Shown here in pieces: positions 6,868-30,902 of a stretch of DNA of 37,448 nucleotides. Position 1 is the stretch's first letter; the number at the start of each line of letters is the position of its first letter. The notes below the pieces were generated by a model, which saw only the letters and a program-made list of their open reading frames with translations, did no database searches and was not told where the DNA came from. Made by a program: the position numbers and the translations under genes. Source of the stretch: Desulfobulbaceae bacterium (GTDB taxonomy: Bacteria; Desulfobacterota; Desulfobulbia; Desulfobulbales; Desulfocapsaceae); NCBI GenBank assembly GCA_020049575.1, contig JAIFKM010000031.1:1-37448 (forward strand), in the 5' to 3' direction.

Positions 6868-9558
6868 ATGTCCAGCAAAAAACAACTGCACGAACTGCAT
6901 ATCAAAGGCAAGCAATATTGTTATCATGCCCTGCGGAACACGTCGGAGACAGGCTCTGGTGAGATTGAACGACTGCCGTACTCCATCCGCATACTTGTTG
7001 AAAATCTCCTGCGCAAACACGATGACCTGATTGTCCGGGATAAAGATCTCTCAGCCATCATCAACTGGCAGAAATCCTATACATCACCTGTTGAAATCCC
7101 CTATCACCCGGCAAGAGTTCTGATGCAGGATTTTACCGGTGTTCCAGCCGTTGTTGATCTGGCCGCCATGCGCGACGCGGTCCGTGACCTGGGAGGCGAC
7201 CCCGGTTGCATCAACCCGCTGGTACCGGTTGAACTGGTTATTGATCACAGTGTTCAGGTTGATTACTTCGGCACCACTGAAAGTTTGAACCAGAATGTCG
7301 CAAAAGAATACGAGCGCAATGGCGAACGCTATACCCTTCTCAAATGGGGTCAGGAAAATTTTGCCAATTTCAAGGTGGTGCCACCCAATTCAGGGATATG
7401 CCACCAGGTCAACCTTGAACATCTCGGTCGGGTAGTCATCGCTGAAGAGCAAGACGGATATACCCTGCTCTACCCCGACACAGTGGTCGGTCTCGACTCC
7501 CACACGCCAATGATCAATGGCATAGGGGTTATGGCCTGGGGTGTCGGCGGTATCGAGGCGGAGGCTGTTTTGCTGGGGCAGCCCTATTTCATGTCGATTC
7601 CCGAAGTCATAGGGGTGAAATTGTTCGGTCGGCTCGCAACTGGGATAACCGCAACCGATCTGGTACTCACCCTCACCGAGATCCTACGCCGCCATCAGGT
7701 GGTAGAAAAATTTGTTGAGTTTTTCGGCCCTGGACTCGGGAACCTCTCCGTTCCCGATCGTGCCACTATTGCCAATATGACTCCGGAGTTTGGGGCTACC
7801 CTTGGTTTTTTCCCGATCGATAAAAAGACGATTGAATATCTGCAGACAACCGGCAGAATAGAGCAGGCCATGATCACCGAGACCTACTCCCGCGAAGTCG
7901 GTCTTTTCTATGAAGGTAATGACGATGGTCGTGAGTATACAGAAATCCTCGAATTTGATCTCTCGCAGGTGACTTCATGTCTGGCCGGTCCGGCCCGCCC
8001 CCAGGATCGGATCCCTCTTTCCCTGATAAAAAAGACCTTCACCGGCGTCAGTCTCGACTCTAAAGATCCCCAGAATCCGGCCGGAAAAGCATCCGACCGG
8101 AAGGAAATTCGCTGCTGCCTCAACGGCAACGAGGTGCAGATCGGTGACGGCAGCGTCGTCATCGCGGCCATAACCTCCTGTACCAACACTTCTAATCCGC
8201 ACGTCATGATAGGGGCAGCCCTCATGGCCAGGAACGCGGTTCACAGGGGTTTGAAAGTTCCTGCTCATGTGAAGACCTCTCTGGCTCCCGGCTCAAAAGT
8301 TGTCAGCAACTATCTCACAGCCTCCGGCTTGATGCCCTATCTCGAAGCCCTTGGTTTTCATCTCACGGCCTTTGGCTGTACCACCTGCATCGGTAACAGC
8401 GGTCCGCTCAATCCGGTTATTGAAGAAGCCATCAAAGAGCATGGCCTCAATGTCGCCGCCGTACTGTCAGGAAATCGAAATTTTGAGGCTCGGATTCATC
8501 AGCGGGTAAAAAGCAATTTCCTCGCCTCCCCCCTGCTTGTCCTGGCGTTTGCCCTGGCCGGGCGGATCGATATAGACCTGACTACTGAGGCCATTGCCTC
8601 AGATCCCAACGGACAACCGGTCTCACTCGCGGAGCTTTGGCCTGATCCGAGGGAAATTGATGAAACCATCTCCCGATATGTAACACGACAGGCGTACGAG
8701 AATGAGTACCAGCATATCTTCAAGGGTGACCGGTTCTGGGAGAGTCTGCCCGTGACCAAAAACACCACATATATATGGGATCCTGATTCCACCTATATCA
8801 AGAAACCACCCTATTTCGATCGATTCGACCTGCAGACATCAGAACCCGAGGATTTTGCCTCTGCCAGAGCGCTGCTCCTGCTTGGCGATTCAGTCACCAC
8901 CGACCATATTTCACCGGCCGGCGCTATCCCATTGCAGTATCCGGCCGGACAATATCTGCAGAAACAGGGTGTACCGCCGGCTGAATTCAACTCCTATGGC
9001 TCACGCAGAGGCAATCATGAGATAATGATGCGTGGTACGTTTGGCAATATCCGTTTAAAAAATTTACTTATACACCCGCAGGAAGGCGGGTTGACCCTTA
9101 AATTTCCAGAAGAGCAGGTCATGTACAACTATGAAGCCGCAAGAGTATATCAAAAGGAAGGCATTCCGCTGATAGTTCTGGCTGGAAAGGAATACGGGAC
9201 GGGTTCTTCACGGGACTGGGCGGCGAAAGGAACGATGCTGCTCGGTATACGGGCAGTGATTGCCGAATCTTTTGAACGGATACATCGCAATAATCTGGTG
9301 GGAATGGGAGTGCTCCCTCTTGTCTTCGAAGAGGGACAAAACTGTCGGAGCCTAGGCCTTGATGGCACAGAAGTCTTTTCTTTCTCGGGTATTTCAGCAA
9401 TGACACCCCGAAAAGCTGTCGCAATCACAGCCTCCAGAAAGGACGGAACGATACTACATTTCAAGGCAATCTGTAGACTGGATACCGAAGTGGATGTACT
9501 CTATTTCCAGCATGGCGGCATCCTTCCATACGTTCTTCGTCGTCTTCTCACCCACTGA
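6868..9558 (+). CDS. acnA: Aconitate hydratase A
   Basis: 896 aa; SCTNTSNPHVM, CTTCIGNSGPL, GDSVTTDHISPAGAI, GSSRDWAAKG motifs. Confidence 0.96.
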   Translation: MSSKKQLHELHIKGKQYCYHALRNTSETGSGEIERLPYSIRILVENLLRKHDDLIVRDKDLSAIINWQKSYTSPVEIPYHPARVLMQDFTGVPAVVDLAAMRDAVRDLGGDPGCINPLVPVELVIDHSVQVDYFGTTESLNQNVAKEYERNGERYTLLKWGQENFANFKVVPPNSGICHQVNLEHLGRVVIAEEQDGYTLLYPDTVVGLDSHTPMINGIGVMAWGVGGIEAEAVLLGQPYFMSIPEVIGVKLFGRLATGITATDLVLTLTEILRRHQVVEKFVEFFGPGLGNLSVPDRATIANMTPEFGATLGFFPIDKKTIEYLQTTGRIEQAMITETYSREVGLFYEGNDDGREYTEILEFDLSQVTSCLAGPARPQDRIPLSLIKKTFTGVSLDSKDPQNPAGKASDRKEIRCCLNGNEVQIGDGSVVIAAITSCTNTSNPHVMIGAALMARNAVHRGLKVPAHVKTSLAPGSKVVSNYLTASGLMPYLEALGFHLTAFGCTTCIGNSGPLNPVIEEAIKEHGLNVAAVLSGNRNFEARIHQRVKSNFLASPLLVLAFALAGRIDIDLTTEAIASDPNGQPVSLAELWPDPREIDETISRYVTRQAYENEYQHIFKGDRFWESLPVTKNTTYIWDPDSTYIKKPPYFDRFDLQTSEPEDFASARALLLLGDSVTTDHISPAGAIPLQYPAGQYLQKQGVPPAEFNSYGSRRGNHEIMMRGTFGNIRLKNLLIHPQEGGLTLKFPEEQVMYNYEAARVYQKEGIPLIVLAGKEYGTGSSRDWAAKGTMLLGIRAVIAESFERIHRNNLVGMGVLPLVFEEGQNCRSLGLDGTEVFSFSGISAMTPRKAVAITASRKDGTILHFKAICRLDTEVDVLYFQHGGILPYVLRRLLTH

Positions 9559-23859: not shown

Positions 23860-24735
23860 TCATCCTGCCATCTTCAGACCTGTCTCAATCTTGCGAGCGA
23901 TGGCCTTGCGGCCCTGATAGTGTTGGAAGATATTACGTGGGCATTTAGCGACACACGCCTCCTCACAACTCGGCCCATAGGCAATGCAGGCCTTATGATC
24001 GATCTTAATGAGGCTGTTCTCATAGGCCACGGCCCCAGCTGGGCAGGCTTTGACACAGAGCTTACAGCCAATGCAGCCCACCTCACAGACAGCCTTGACC
24101 TTGTTGCCCATATCCTTTGAGGAGCAGGGAACATACACTCTGGCCTTCAGCGTCTGGATTTCAATAATTTTTTTCGGACAGGTGCGCACGCACACACCGC
24201 AGCTTACGCACTTATCAGGGTTGACGATGGGGAAATTCTCGACCATGGTGATGGCATCAAACGGACATGCCTCCGCACATTCACCAAGACCGATGCAGGC
24301 ATACTGGCAGTTCGAAGGGCCGCCGAATCCAAGATTTGCCGCAGTACAGGAGGCAAAGCCAATGTATTCATGTTTGTGGCTGACCCTCCCTTCCACGCGG
24401 GAACAGCGAACTAAGGCGATCTGATCCTCAACGGCAGTCATTTTCTTACCGGTCAGTTCCGCAACGATCGCCGCCACCCTCTCTTTTCCGGGAAAGCAAA
24501 GATTGGGAGGCACATCCGGATCGTTGACAACTGCAATGGCATATCCTTCACAGCCAGGATATCCGCAACCGCCGCACTGGGCCAGAGGCAGGGATTCAAG
24601 AACCTCTTCAATCAACGGATTGGTTTCAACCGCAAATTTATGAGCCGCAATAGCCAGGCCGATGCCAAAAAACAGGCCGATACATCCCAGCAGAACCACC
24701 CCGCCAATTGCAATTTTAATTAATGCCGGATCCAT
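23860..24735 (-). CDS. rnfB: Rnf electron-transport complex subunit RnfB
   Basis: LPLAQCGGCGYPGCEGYA, several 4Fe-4S CxxCxxCxxxC motifs. Confidence 0.95.
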   Translation of the reverse strand: MDPALIKIAIGGVVLLGCIGLFFGIGLAIAAHKFAVETNPLIEEVLESLPLAQCGGCGYPGCEGYAIAVVNDPDVPPNLCFPGKERVAAIVAELTGKKMTAVEDQIALVRCSRVEGRVSHKHEYIGFASCTAANLGFGGPSNCQYACIGLGECAEACPFDAITMVENFPIVNPDKCVSCGVCVRTCPKKIIEIQTLKARVYVPCSSKDMGNKVKAVCEVGCIGCKLCVKACPAGAVAYENSLIKIDHKACIAYGPSCEEACVAKCPRNIFQHYQGRKAIARKIETGLKMAG

Positions 24736-24783: not shown

Positions 24784-25725
24784 TCAAAAAAGCTGGAGAC
24801 CGGAGAAACCCAGGAAGGCCATGGCAAACTGACCTGCGACAATGAAGGCTATCGGCAGTCCCTTGAAAGTCGGCGGGATATTGGCAAGGTCAAGCCGCTC
24901 GCGCACCGAACTCATGAGATAGAGCGCCAGCAGAAAACCGCCGCCCGCCCCGAGGGCAAGCATGAATGTTTCAATTATATTGTAGTTGTTGCTGGCCATG
25001 ATCAGCGGTACAGCAATAATGACACAATTGGCGATCACTAGTACCAGATACACGCCAAAGGAGTTGAAAAGGACAGGGTTGACCTTTCGCAGGACGGTAT
25101 CTACCGCCTGGACTGTGAGGGAAACCAGCCCGATAAAGACCACGATCTGGAGGAAATTGAGGTTATAGGGGATGAGAATGAACTGGTAAAAAAACCAGCT
25201 CATGATAGCTGACGCCACCATGACGATGGTGAAAACTACTCCCATACCTTTGGCTGTTGTTTTTCTTTTCGAGGTGCCGAAAAAAACGCAGAGCCCGAGG
25301 TACTTGGTGAAAACAAAGTTGTTGACCAGGAGAGCCGAAATCAAGATGGACAAAAGGTAGCCAATATACGGTTTCTTCACCAGCAGACTGGCCAGTTCTT
25401 TGCCATCCTCACCACGCAGGGACACGACATGGGACTTGGCCATATTCAAAGGTTCGGTAAACAACAGCGATACCTGCAGGCCATTTTGAGAGACAACAGC
25501 CTCCTTGACCTCCAGAAGGATATCCGGGTCAGATTCCTCAAAAACCTTGTAGCTGGCCCTATTTTTAGCGGTGTTTTTATCTATCGCCGCAGCGAAGGTG
25601 AGGACAATTTCATTTTCCGCACCGAAACTTTGCTTGCTGACCAGTTCTGCTGCCTGCAAACACAATGGCAAAAGAGAAAAAAGCAGCGCGAGAGTCCAGT
25701 ACTTCAGTTGTTTGTGCATCATCAT
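24784..25725 (-). CDS. rnfA: RnfA with N-terminal signal peptide and Ig-like extension
   Basis: C-terminal ~195 aa IGYLLSILISALLVNNFVFTKYLGLCVFFGTSKRKTTAKGMG... is RnfA; ~115 aa N-terminal extension. Confidence 0.94.
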   Translation of the reverse strand: MMMHKQLKYWTLALLFSLLPLCLQAAELVSKQSFGAENEIVLTFAAAIDKNTAKNRASYKVFEESDPDILLEVKEAVVSQNGLQVSLLFTEPLNMAKSHVVSLRGEDGKELASLLVKKPYIGYLLSILISALLVNNFVFTKYLGLCVFFGTSKRKTTAKGMGVVFTIVMVASAIMSWFFYQFILIPYNLNFLQIVVFIGLVSLTVQAVDTVLRKVNPVLFNSFGVYLVLVIANCVIIAVPLIMASNNYNIIETFMLALGAGGGFLLALYLMSSVRERLDLANIPPTFKGLPIAFIVAGQFAMAFLGFSGLQLF

Positions 25726-26339
25726 TTCAGCCCTTTTGCGCGTTTATAGGCAATCTCAATCCAGTTGAAGAAGGCCATCATCAGCCCGACGACAAAGAAT
25801 CCGGCACTTGGCAGGATGAAAAATAGCAGCGGTTTGAAGCCAAGAATGTCATACCCAAGAATCGTCCCGGAACCCAGAAGTTCACGAACCAGACCGATCA
25901 CCATCATACCGACAAGAAAACCCAACCCCATGCCGAGACCGTCCCAGAATGAATCTTTGACAGATTCCTTACAGGCGAACATCTCAAGCCTCATGGTGAT
26001 AATAGCAAAGGCCACGATGAGTTTGACGAAGATTCCCATCTTGGCATAGGCCTCCGGCATATAGGCGGCAAGGGCCAGATCAATGACGGTCACCCAGGTG
26101 GCAATGGTCAGCGTATAGGATGGAATACGGATGCGAGGGTGGATCTTGTTTTTGAAGAGCGAGATGGTCACACTGGAAAAAACCTGGACGAACAGGACGG
26201 CGATCCCCAGCATGAACCCGTTCATTACCGTGGTGGAAATACCCACCGCCGGACACATCGACAGGGCCAGCTTGAAAATCGGATTCTCGCTCAAGATGCC
26301 GCGAGAAATGAGCTGCATGCTTGTTTTATCGTTTGCCAC
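25722..26339 (-). CDS. rnfE: Rnf complex subunit RnfE
   Basis: NPIFKLALSMCPAVGISTTVMNGFMLGIAV; cluster position. Confidence 0.94.
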   Translation of the reverse strand: MANDKTSMQLISRGILSENPIFKLALSMCPAVGISTTVMNGFMLGIAVLFVQVFSSVTISLFKNKIHPRIRIPSYTLTIATWVTVIDLALAAYMPEAYAKMGIFVKLIVAFAIITMRLEMFACKESVKDSFWDGLGMGLGFLVGMMVIGLVRELLGSGTILGYDILGFKPLLFFILPSAGFFVVGLMMAFFNWIEIAYKRAKGLK

Positions 26340-26359: not shown

Positions 26360-27241
26360 TTAGAACGCAACCGCTATCTTCTGTTCGGCCAGTACGGCAT
26401 CCAGGATATTGAGGCGGTAAGCAAATTTTTTCACAATGCCCTTCACCCCGTTATTCACTGAACGACTGGAGATAGTGGCGCCCGTCAGGGCATAGATATC
26501 ATGCTCAAGGTACTGTTTCAGGATAGCTGCGGCATCAGCCTCGGCTATGTTTCCTTCCAGGGCCTGAAAATACTTGTCGGGAAGCGGTTCCTTGACAACA
26601 TCCATGCCTTTCAGTGTATCAAACGTCTTACCTTTGAACTGGTTCTTGAAGAAATCCTGTTCGATCTCGGCACCAAGACCGGGATCTTCTTCATGCTCCA
26701 GGATCTCAAGACCGAGGAGGCTGAATTGAGGGTCAAGGGCAAGCATCACGCCAATAAAGGTCTTGAAGCCGGTAAATTTACCATCAAGCAGATAGGCCAC
26801 CCGTTGACCGTTATCAGTTACGACTATGGTCTGGTCGGCAAAAACCACATCCTTCCCTCCGGCAATTCCCCGTACAATCTTATCACGCTCTTCCCTCTCG
26901 GCAAGACTGCTCTCTTCAACCTTTACCACCTTGGTATCGACAATCTTTCCTTCAAGATCAAGCGTCACAAAAATGAACCCTTCCTTTCCTGGCAGGAGAT
27001 AGCCGATGGTCTGATTGCCGGCATCCGAGACGACATAGCGATATATTGAGTGCAGGGCCATGCTGCCGGGGATCGGTTTCTGGTCCGAATATCCGAGCAG
27101 GGCATACCTGACCTTCTGCTCGTTGACATGCTCATTGTGTTTTTTAGCCTTGATAGTGGTGAGATAGGCCACCCCCATCACCGTGGCGGCGAGCATACAG
27201 GAGAGCGTCAAACGCATGATGATGGTCAATATATCTTTCAT
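26360..27241 (-). CDS. rnfG: Rnf complex FMN-binding subunit RnfG
   Basis: FMN-binding domain, TGATISSRSVNNGV motif; cluster position. Confidence 0.93.
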   Translation of the reverse strand: MKDILTIIMRLTLSCMLAATVMGVAYLTTIKAKKHNEHVNEQKVRYALLGYSDQKPIPGSMALHSIYRYVVSDAGNQTIGYLLPGKEGFIFVTLDLEGKIVDTKVVKVEESSLAEREERDKIVRGIAGGKDVVFADQTIVVTDNGQRVAYLLDGKFTGFKTFIGVMLALDPQFSLLGLEILEHEEDPGLGAEIEQDFFKNQFKGKTFDTLKGMDVVKEPLPDKYFQALEGNIAEADAAAILKQYLEHDIYALTGATISSRSVNNGVKGIVKKFAYRLNILDAVLAEQKIAVAF

Positions 27242-28290
27242 TGGCCACCTCCCAGCGGCGGCGCAAACCGCCGCGGTTTAAACCAACCGTCAAGAACAGG
27301 ACTCAAAGGATTCATGAGCAGGATGGCATAACATATTCCTTCCGGATATCCACCCTTGAGTCGAATCATGACGGTCAGAACCCCGATTCCGACACCATAG
27401 ACAATCTGCGATACTTTGTTGGTCGGACAGGTCACGTAATCGTTCGCCATATAAAAGGCACCGAGCAGGGCTCCGCCGGTAAGTATCGCCAGCAGAGGAT
27501 CGCCGCTGAAATAAGTCTCCCCGCCGAAGACCCAGGAGAGCAAGGCGATGGTGCCGAGAACCGAGACCGGGATATGCCAGGTTATATAGCCCCGGTAGAT
27601 AAGGTAAAGGCCACCAAGAACCAGCAGGAAGCCCGATGTCTCACCGATACAGCCGGGCCGCCAGCCCATGAAGAACGAGGCATAGAGACTGGTGCCTGAA
27701 CCGAAGAGTTCGGTAAATGCGGCCATGCCCTGTTCCTTCATAATCGCCAGAGGTGTGGCCGTGGTTACTGCGTTGACAGAATCTCCGAGATACGAAAAGA
27801 TGGCCATATCCTTCAATGGCGGCAACCAGGCTGATGTCATGGCCACCGGAAAGGACGCCAGCAGAAACGATCGGCCGAGCAGGGCGGGATTAAAGATATT
27901 ATAACCAATGCCACCCAGGATGTGCTTGCCGATGTAGATTGCCATGACGGCTCCAAGAAGCGGCAGAAGGGGAGAAACTCCCGGCGGGATGACAAAAGCC
28001 AACAGCATGCCGGTGATAACAGCACTGCCGTCCTTCACCGTGACTTTCCGGCCCAGCAGTTTCTGACTGGCTGCCTCGACTGCCACACAGCTGATTACCG
28101 ACACTGCAGTGATGAACAGGACCTGAATACCGAAAACGAAAACAGACAAGAGCAGTGGCGGTATCAGGCAGGCCACCACAGTCCACATGATCTTTTCAAC
28201 CGACTCATGACTCTTCACATGCGGAGAGATGGAAACTTTCCATCCTCTTATTGTGGGAGATGACTGGTTTTCTGGTGCTTGCGGTTCGAT
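27238..28290 (-). CDS. rnfD: Rnf complex subunit RnfD (start proposed at ATC 28290; the ORF track gives GTG 28218)
   Basis: Membrane subunit with VTTATPLAIMK and FNPALLGR; upstream in-frame sequence VSISPHVKSHESVEKIMW matches the expected RnfD N-terminus. Confidence 0.88.
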   Translation of the reverse strand: MEPQAPENQSSPTIRGWKVSISPHVKSHESVEKIMWTVVACLIPPLLLSVFVFGIQVLFITAVSVISCVAVEAASQKLLGRKVTVKDGSAVITGMLLAFVIPPGVSPLLPLLGAVMAIYIGKHILGGIGYNIFNPALLGRSFLLASFPVAMTSAWLPPLKDMAIFSYLGDSVNAVTTATPLAIMKEQGMAAFTELFGSGTSLYASFFMGWRPGCIGETSGFLLVLGGLYLIYRGYITWHIPVSVLGTIALLSWVFGGETYFSGDPLLAILTGGALLGAFYMANDYVTCPTNKVSQIVYGVGIGVLTVMIRLKGGYPEGICYAILLMNPLSPVLDGWFKPRRFAPPLGGGQ

Positions 28291-28372: not shown

Positions 28373-29692
28373 CTACCTCTTGGCCTTCATCTTGGCTAAA
28401 CGGACAAACTGGACGAGCGGCCTCTTCGCCGGACAGACATACGCGCAGCTGCCGCATTCAAAACACTCAAAAACACCGAACTGAGCCGTATCTTCAGGCC
28501 GGTTGGCCTCGACATATATGGCGATTTCCTTCGGCTCAAGCCCCATGGGGCAAGCCTCAAGACACCAGCCGCAGCGGATACACTGCGAATGCGGTTCGGT
28601 GTCTGTCTCGGCTTCTGTCAGAAATAATACGGCTGAGGTTGTCTTCGTTACCGGGATATCCAGACTGGAAACGGCAAACCCCATCATCGGGCCGCCCATG
28701 ACAATTTTAGCCAGATCCGGTTTAAGACCACCAAGATATTTGACAATGTCACCAATCTTCGTGCCGACCTTGACCATTAGATTGGCTGGTCTGGCGATGC
28801 CTTGTCCGGCAATGGTCACCACCTTCTCATAGAGGGGTTTACCAAACACCACGGCATCACGAATGGCGCTGGCCGTGGAGACATTGTGCACCACCACCCC
28901 TACCGCTGATGGCAGAGCCATGGCCGGCACCTTGCGGCCGGTGATGGCCTGGATGAGCTGTTTTTCTGAACCTTGGGGATATTTGACCTGCAGGGCCTTT
29001 ACCGTCAGGGAATAGTCGGCGGTCGAACCGGCCCGGGCAGCCTCGGTCATAGCCAGAATTGCATCCGGTTTGTTACTTTCTATGCCGATATGACAATTTT
29101 TAATACCCAGTATGCGCAGGATAATCTTGGCACCCTCAATGATATCCGCGGCATGTTCAAGCATCTGCCGGTGATCAGCAGTGATATAGGGCTCACATTC
29201 AGCGCCGTTGAGCAGAAGTGTATCGATTGGATTGTCAGGCGGAGGACTCAATTTGACATGAGTGGGAAAACCAGCGCCGCCGATGCCGATAATGCCGGCA
29301 GCGTGAACCCTGGCCAGCAGTTCTTTGGCATCGACGGTCTGCCAGTCCTGAGCCTGGTAGTGTCTCGGCTCGGCTTCGTGATTCACCGTGATGGTGATGG
29401 AAGGGGCAGAGACCCGCATCGGATGAGCCGACATACCAAGATCTTTTATTTTGCCGGCAACCGGGGCGTGCAGCGGTACCCCAAGCCCCTTTGTCACCTC
29501 GCCGATTATCTCCCCCTCTTGGACCTCCCCGCGTTTGGCAACCGTGGGAGTACAGGGAGCCCCGATATGCTGTCCGAGGATGATCTCAAGTTCATCAGGG
29601 ACAGGCATCACCTCTATCCTGAGTTCGGATGTCTGCGCCTTTGCATCTGGCGGATGCACACCGCCTTTGGGAAAAGTCAGTAAAGATATCAT
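28373..29692 (-). CDS. rnfC: Rnf complex subunit RnfC
   Basis: GGVHPP, GIGGAGFPTHVKL, NGAECEPYITADHRQM, two 4Fe-4S motifs CIRCGWCLEACP / CFECGSCAYVCP. Confidence 0.95.
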   Translation of the reverse strand: MISLLTFPKGGVHPPDAKAQTSELRIEVMPVPDELEIILGQHIGAPCTPTVAKRGEVQEGEIIGEVTKGLGVPLHAPVAGKIKDLGMSAHPMRVSAPSITITVNHEAEPRHYQAQDWQTVDAKELLARVHAAGIIGIGGAGFPTHVKLSPPPDNPIDTLLLNGAECEPYITADHRQMLEHAADIIEGAKIILRILGIKNCHIGIESNKPDAILAMTEAARAGSTADYSLTVKALQVKYPQGSEKQLIQAITGRKVPAMALPSAVGVVVHNVSTASAIRDAVVFGKPLYEKVVTIAGQGIARPANLMVKVGTKIGDIVKYLGGLKPDLAKIVMGGPMMGFAVSSLDIPVTKTTSAVLFLTEAETDTEPHSQCIRCGWCLEACPMGLEPKEIAIYVEANRPEDTAQFGVFECFECGSCAYVCPAKRPLVQFVRLAKMKAKR

Positions 29693-29918: not shown

Positions 29919-30902
29919 TCAACTTATACCGCCATAGTATTTCATAAACTGGATCCGTTCATAGGCGGCTGGATTTTCTGCCATTTCATAACTCAATTTT
30001 CCTTTGAAATCGGCAATCTTGTTATAGCCTTTCTGCTCCATCCAGTTTTCCAGCTCTTGAAGCAGAACATTGATGTGCCCCGCCCCATTCTTGTAAAGAG
30101 TCGAAACTACCTGGACTGCCGCAGCTCCGACGAGGAGCTGTTTGATCAGGCCGGCGCCGTCATGAATGCCGGTGGAAGCAACCAGATCCTTATCTATTAC
30201 TCCGGAAAGCAGGGCAATCCAGCGCAGGGTGTCGGCACTTTCCGCTGGAGCGCTGAATATTTCGGCAGTTTTCACCACGAGCCGATCGATGTCAACATCA
30301 GGATTGCAGAAACGGTTAAACAGGACAAACCCGCCGACCTGGTTCTTCCAACTCAGCCGGGTGATGATATTTGCCAGAGAAGATGAATACTTGCTCATCT
30401 TTAAAGAAACGGGAATGGAAAGCGTTGAGGTAACTTTCTCAAGAATGCTGAAATAGAGATTTTCGTTTTCCAGGCTTGATACTCGAGGGTTACTGGGCAA
30501 CAGCGAAATATTGAGTTCGAGGGCGTCGGCTCCCGCCTTCTCGACTGATTTGGCAAAGGCTATCCACTCGTTCCCGGAAACACAGTTAATACTAGCTATA
30601 ATAGGGATATCTACCGCTTTCTTGGCTTCGGAGATAAGGCTGATATACTCCTGAACGGCACTACCCCGGGTATATTCCCGGACATAGTCCGAGGCCTCGG
30701 GATAGTCAGTATTGTAGGTCTCCATATTACTGGAGAGCTCGGCCTGGATCTGCTCTTCAAAAAGTGATTTCAGAACCACGGCGCCGGCATTGTTCTCTGC
30801 CAGTTCACTGATCTTGGCCACCGAATGTGTAAGCCCGCAGCTTCCCACTATTATGGGATTTTTCAAATTCAGCCCGAGATACTTTACCGAGAGATCTTTC
30901 AT
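29919..30902 (-). CDS. Dihydroorotate dehydrogenase-like flavoprotein
   Basis: MKDLSVKYLGLNLKNPIIVGSCGLTHS, GADALELNIS, IPVSLKMS, LVASTGIHDGAGLIKQLLVGAAAVQVVS. Confidence 0.88.
   Translation of the reverse strand: MKDLSVKYLGLNLKNPIIVGSCGLTHSVAKISELAENNAGAVVLKSLFEEQIQAELSSNMETYNTDYPEASDYVREYTRGSAVQEYISLISEAKKAVDIPIIASINCVSGNEWIAFAKSVEKAGADALELNISLLPSNPRVSSLENENLYFSILEKVTSTLSIPVSLKMSKYSSSLANIITRLSWKNQVGGFVLFNRFCNPDVDIDRLVVKTAEIFSAPAESADTLRWIALLSGVIDKDLVASTGIHDGAGLIKQLLVGAAAVQVVSTLYKNGAGHINVLLQELENWMEQKGYNKIADFKGKLSYEMAENPAAYERIQFMKYYGGIS

Follow-up and report, generated by a model that had tools for sequence, protein, structure and literature searches.

Anaerobes conserve energy with the Rnf complex, one of their basic pumps. 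The RnfA chains in its solved structures (C. tetanomorphum, 7zc6; Acetobacterium, 9eri; A. vinelandii, 8ahx) are 190 to 191 aa long, and the annotated length of E. coli RsxA is 193 aa, in each case without a signal peptide or an added domain. In the C. tetanomorphum complex, RnfA is described as coming close to RnfG with its N-terminal helix and the loop next to it (PMC9588780); RnfG must swing between RnfA/E and RnfD (PMC9588780 and PMC11889175). NqrE of the Na+-NQR, which is homologous to the RnfA core, is likewise without an N-terminal domain and is part of a separate nqr gene set.

We compared these systems with a locus of a Desulfobulbaceae bacterium (GCA_020049575.1), contained in the window, that is, the whole stretch of 37,448 nucleotides analyzed here (contig JAIFKM010000031.1). 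Near relatives of the source genome belong to Desulfoprunum (order Desulfobulbales), with 82% protein identity to D. benzoelyticum. A complete rnfCDGEAB operon, a gene set also seen in 18 related regions, runs from 29692 down to 23860 on the minus strand. It comprises rnfC (28373..29692; 439 aa; recovered by Pfam and NCBIfam models, full length with the NADH/FMN-binding domain), rnfD (27238..28218; 326 aa; PF03116, 9e-103, above the NCBIfam cutoff), an enlarged rnfG (26360..27241; 293 aa against the usual ~190 to 215 aa; FMN-binding domain from residue 158), rnfE (25722..26339; 205 aa; PF02508, 2.9e-51, with NCBIfam RsxE above the cutoff), rnfA (24784..25725; 313 aa; ATG at 25725), and an rnfB for a small ferredoxin-type RnfB (23860..24735; 291 aa; Pfam and NCBIfam). 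The preliminary description of this DNA, which named no strand, had presented RnfA as an oversized protein whose start overlaps the rnfE stop, and both statements hold: the chain exceeds the usual length by ~120 aa, and the genes meet in an ATGA (25722..25725; AAA TGA / ATG), with an AAGGG ~6 to 8 nt 5' of the rnfA start. Upstream of rnfC lies a dihydroorotate-dehydrogenase-like gene (29919-30902, minus strand), a relative of which occurs in 7 of the 19 regions with an extended RnfA.

The C-terminal part of the protein is a canonical RnfA core of six helices (residues 119 to 313; 24787..25371, minus strand), delineated by alignment, an AF2 model of the full-length chain of moderate confidence (pLDDT 68), and the charge bias of the loops. 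The Pfam Rnf-Nqr model (PF02508) matches residues 125 to 310 only (2.2e-44), and C146 and C234, corresponding to the two cysteines of the intramembrane [2Fe-2S] cluster, are invariant in our alignment A2. Lysine and arginine are concentrated in the inner loops (3.7/2.3/3.1, versus 0.8/0.04/0.1 in the outer loops), which predicts an outward-facing RnfA N terminus and agrees with a review of the inverted topology of RnfA and RnfE (PMC12174285). The locus thus shares the Rnf-Nqr core, the cluster cysteines, the predicted N-out topology, and the complete rnf operon with the solved systems and E. coli RsxA. The NCBIfam rnfA model (TIGR01943) gives 194.6 bits, below its cutoff of 229.3; nevertheless, we treat the protein as a divergent RnfA, because this is still its best NCBIfam model, the cutoff is a naming threshold, and in the tree the protein groups with Rnf and not with NqrE. 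An NqrE/NqrD-like pair is present elsewhere in the source genome (G000:C137:923-2130; L002 and L003), which therefore probably has an Na+-NQR; the identity of the RnfA core to this NqrE copy is ~34%.

The N-terminal extension is in frame and free of stops in 115 distinct loci, and the start methionine is aligned in 97% of the sequences. Across residues 26 to 118, dN/dS is mostly 0.05 to 0.27 in close pairs with unsaturated synonymous change (some pairs are saturated, and one nearly identical pair gives 0.51), compared with 0.01 to 0.08 for the RnfA core; the extension is under purifying selection. Together with the conserved fold described below, this bears out the earlier proposal that the upstream ATG is the true translation start. 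We surveyed Desulfobacterota in samples of the order, the class, and the phylum. A full-length extended RnfA was found in 52 of the 146 sampled genomes of the order Desulfobulbales, none of them with an internal stop, in 77 of 243 in the class sample, and in 8 of 297 in the phylum sample, where 114 of the 297 have some RnfA/NqrE-type match.

Beyond its signal peptide, the extension consists of a single Ig-like domain (residues 26 to 118; 25372..25650, minus strand). The preliminary description had supposed a beta-rich region of about 85 aa resembling Big_5/SbsA-type domains; the class was correctly guessed, as Pfam, the PDB profile, AF2, and Foldseek agree, and the length is revised to ~93 aa. 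Scanned singly, 28 of 41 homologs match Pfam Big_5 with E values of 1 or less, the lowest being 3.1e-7, with the window copy alone reaching 13 bits against a cutoff of 23.6. An AF2 model of the domain built with 86 relatives (pLDDT 95.2; pTM 0.86) is all beta except for one short helix, Foldseek searches recovered the Ig domains of SbsC and Sap (E values of 6e-6 to 2e-4), and a profile search against the PDB recovered the S-layer protein Sap (E = 0.0013). The domain is thus like the Big_5/SbsA-type, SbsC, and Sap Ig domains in its predicted fold, with weak but real sequence similarity. It differs from them in being present as a single copy fused to a subunit of a redox pump and in a clade-specific motif, E63-x3-P67-D68-I69 (EESDPDI; 25519..25539, minus strand), whose four named residues are invariant in all 86 rows of alignment A3 and in the 115 aligned sequences.

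The domain is preceded by an N-terminal signal peptide, as had been proposed (MMMHKQLKYWTLALLFSLLPLCLQA; residues 1 to 25; 25651..25725, minus strand; helix at residues 2 to 26 in AF2). Classified across the 115 homologs by simple rules rather than a trained predictor, the signal ends in most cases in a signal-peptidase-I-type site. In the Desulfobacterales branch, 13 sequences have a lipobox instead (LTGC, LAGC, or LGGC; LxGC), with a 14th match (L070) being ambiguous. The occurrence of two signal types on one domain argues strongly that the domain is exported, and together with the N-out charge bias it favors the periplasmic location that had been suggested. Since the lipobox replaces the signal peptidase I signal, the RnfAs of the Desulfobacterales branch look, from their sequences, like six-helix lipoproteins; such a signal on a membrane protein of six helices would be unusual.

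In a tree of RnfA cores, all of the extended forms constitute one clade (support, 100/96). The count of three changes on this tree stems from two mislabeled entries, L067, which is listed twice in the underlying table, and L073, which is cut by a contig end. The plain RnfA of genome G348 is its sister (100/100), and a long branch leads to the canonical RnfAs. The G348 operon (L153:1-4012), the nearest relative of the extended clade, encodes a plain RnfA of 195 aa and an RnfG of 214 aa; as the one known domain-less sister, it is weak ground for the order of gain. The preliminary description had also considered that relatives might lack the extension or carry it in a disrupted frame: the former applies to this sister, which lies outside the extended clade, and the latter to no full-length member of the clade. 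Several genomes (G273, G231, and G103) have a canonical RnfA beside the extended one, and the extended form is hence a separate Rnf type. Passages of PMC5109826 describe an Rnf1 with a small RnfB and an Rnf2 with an RnfB of ~700 aa in Desulfobacteraceae and report that D. multivorans, in which all six Rnf1 subunits were found by proteomics, also has a large-RnfB Rnf2. Genome G273 likewise pairs an extended-RnfA operon with one encoding a 685-aa RnfB and a 191-aa RnfA. On account of this pairing, Rnf1 may be an example of the extended type; the same passages contain no mention of an added domain on RnfA1.

Three further features were observed among the Rnf loci of these genomes. (i) A second Rnf type of the same order and phylum (L155, L159, L160, and L172) combines an RnfB of 685 to 711 aa (Tol2-type; PMC5109826) with an RnfA of ordinary size. 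(ii) The RnfAs of G208 and G252 (L193:4657-5469, plus strand; L194 is similar) carry extra residues in the loop that joins helix 2 to helix 3 and end in a tail of ~45 aa, a different elaboration that is unrelated to the Ig-like extension. (iii) The rnfB adjoining a lipobox-type rnfA in L192 has an in-frame TGA (9553-9555, plus strand) precisely where the first cysteine of the cluster is expected (LAGAQ*GGCGFxGC), beyond which the frame runs on to a full RnfB. The same codon is found in L075, L077, L079-L084, L086 (=L154/L188), L087, and L089, and TGC occupies this position in L076/L088. These genes encode a putative selenocysteine-containing RnfB. SelB was recovered above the cutoff in G273, G231, and G293, and the local fold at the rnfB TGA was not significant. 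The top 20 families of a 2016 selenoproteome survey include RnfC but not RnfB.

The extended RnfA is accompanied by a change in RnfG. RnfG is 293 to 304 aa long in each of the 74 extended loci where its start is measurable, and the three extended operons at the greatest distance encode versions of 298 to 307 aa, as opposed to 193 to 218 aa in most canonical operons inspected (the few longer canonical values being NqrC or an over-called start). The enlargement amounts to ~80 to 100 aa, contributed by an N-terminal stretch and by a segment between the two FMN-binding parts, and the other Rnf subunits are of ordinary size. The window RnfG scores 68.7 bits against an NCBIfam cutoff of 102. The idea that its extension is a duplicated FMN domain was unsupported by hhalign (probability, 4.5). 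Enzymes of the ApbE family load RnfG and RnfD with flavin, and an ApbE gene adjoins 12 of the 19 extended operons, with the window operon not being one of these.

Based on these observations, we assign the protein to a divergent clade of Rnf, the ferredoxin:NAD+ ion pump, that occurs in Desulfobulbales and Desulfobacterales, and we propose that its periplasmic Ig-like domain and the enlarged RnfG most likely form an interface that steadies or guides RnfG. The signal peptide would send the ~93-residue domain across the membrane and would then be removed by signal peptidase I or, in the Desulfobacterales branch, handled by the lipoprotein pathway, after which the chain would enter the membrane at the normal first RnfA helix. 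As the N terminus of RnfA already faces outward, the domain would come to lie on the periplasmic face, beside the groove between RnfA and RnfE at which RnfG docks with its mobile FMN domain to collect the electron. With the residues added to RnfG, it could provide a larger periplasmic interface along which RnfG is steadied between RnfA/E and RnfD. The preliminary description had envisaged docking to RnfG or to a cytochrome; the first is made plausible by the proximity of the two subunits in the solved structure and by the size of RnfG. Co-divergence was unspecific, with partial correlations of the Ig-like domain of 0.33 with the N-terminal half of RnfG and 0.34 with RnfD. Since it did not single out RnfG, a contact between the two proteins is something we infer, and the domain and the enlargement could share one history without touching.

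The best surviving alternative, which we regard as unlikely though worth weighing, is that the domain serves assembly or stability, by aiding N-out insertion or by holding the complex together or to the cell wall or other proteins of the envelope, with no role in electron transfer. Big_5/S-layer Ig domains are typically structural modules, and this one, at a mean identity of ~52%, is less conserved than the RnfA core. Moreover, most RnfAs insert N-out without a signal peptide, so that assembly or tethering may be what the domain was gained for. Against this, the invariance of E-x3-PDI in 115 sequences goes beyond what a spacer needs, and the large RnfG accompanies the domain in every case measured. 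We give a rather low probability to a functionally distinct Rnf in which the domain and the enlarged RnfG would re-route or gate the periplasmic electron step (e.g., through a clamp on RnfG or the acceptance of a partner in the periplasm), with the Desulfobacterales members having a lipidated RnfA of six helices and a selenocysteine-containing RnfB.

These bacteria are sulfate reducers, which commonly have periplasmic cytochromes, and this speaks for a docking site for a cytochrome c or another periplasmic electron carrier that would open the U-shaped electron path to the periplasm. The same can be said of the route of the electron, which in every Rnf model passes via the FMN of RnfG on the periplasmic side (PMC11889175 and PMC12174285). 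We nevertheless consider such a site improbable, and the cytochrome part of the earlier proposal is set aside: no heme gene recurs near the 19 extended operons, a multiheme gene being found near only 1 of them (~13 to 19 kb examined), the full-length RnfC with its NADH/FMN-binding domain is consistent with ordinary NAD+ chemistry, and in D. multivorans a cytochrome belongs to the other rnf cluster, rnf2 (PMC5109826). Still less probable is a CopC-like domain that would bind metal through E63, D66/D68, and H99. CopC is among the Foldseek matches (TM, 0.62), its profile gives weak matches, and E63, D68, and H99 are conserved; however, these matches are weaker than those to S-layer Ig domains, the CopC profile scored 13.9 bits on the window RnfA, below its cutoff of 23.3, and in distant members H99 is replaced by tyrosine (L090 and L091) and D66 by serine (L091 and L092). 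Finally, although canonical RnfAs begin at the position of the core, an annotation artifact, with translation starting there and an accidentally open frame upstream, is ruled out for practical purposes by the conserved start, purifying selection, fold, and two signal types, and by the lack of stops in full-length members.

The extended RnfA is real and conserved, and as a variant of a known machine it is apparently undescribed: our search of the open literature did not find a description of an RnfA extension, and the sole match to RnfA with an Ig-like domain concerns a toxin. Rnf of this type is easily missed because its RnfA and RnfG score below the curated NCBIfam cutoffs. The S9 legend of a BLASTP survey (PMC10553843) gives Rnf as absent from Desulfobulbales; we disagree with this legend, as complete rnf operons are common in the order. 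The way in which RnfG is steered as it shuttles in the periplasm between RnfA/E and RnfD is still debated, and a clade in which both RnfA and RnfG have gained periplasmic mass is a natural handle on this step.
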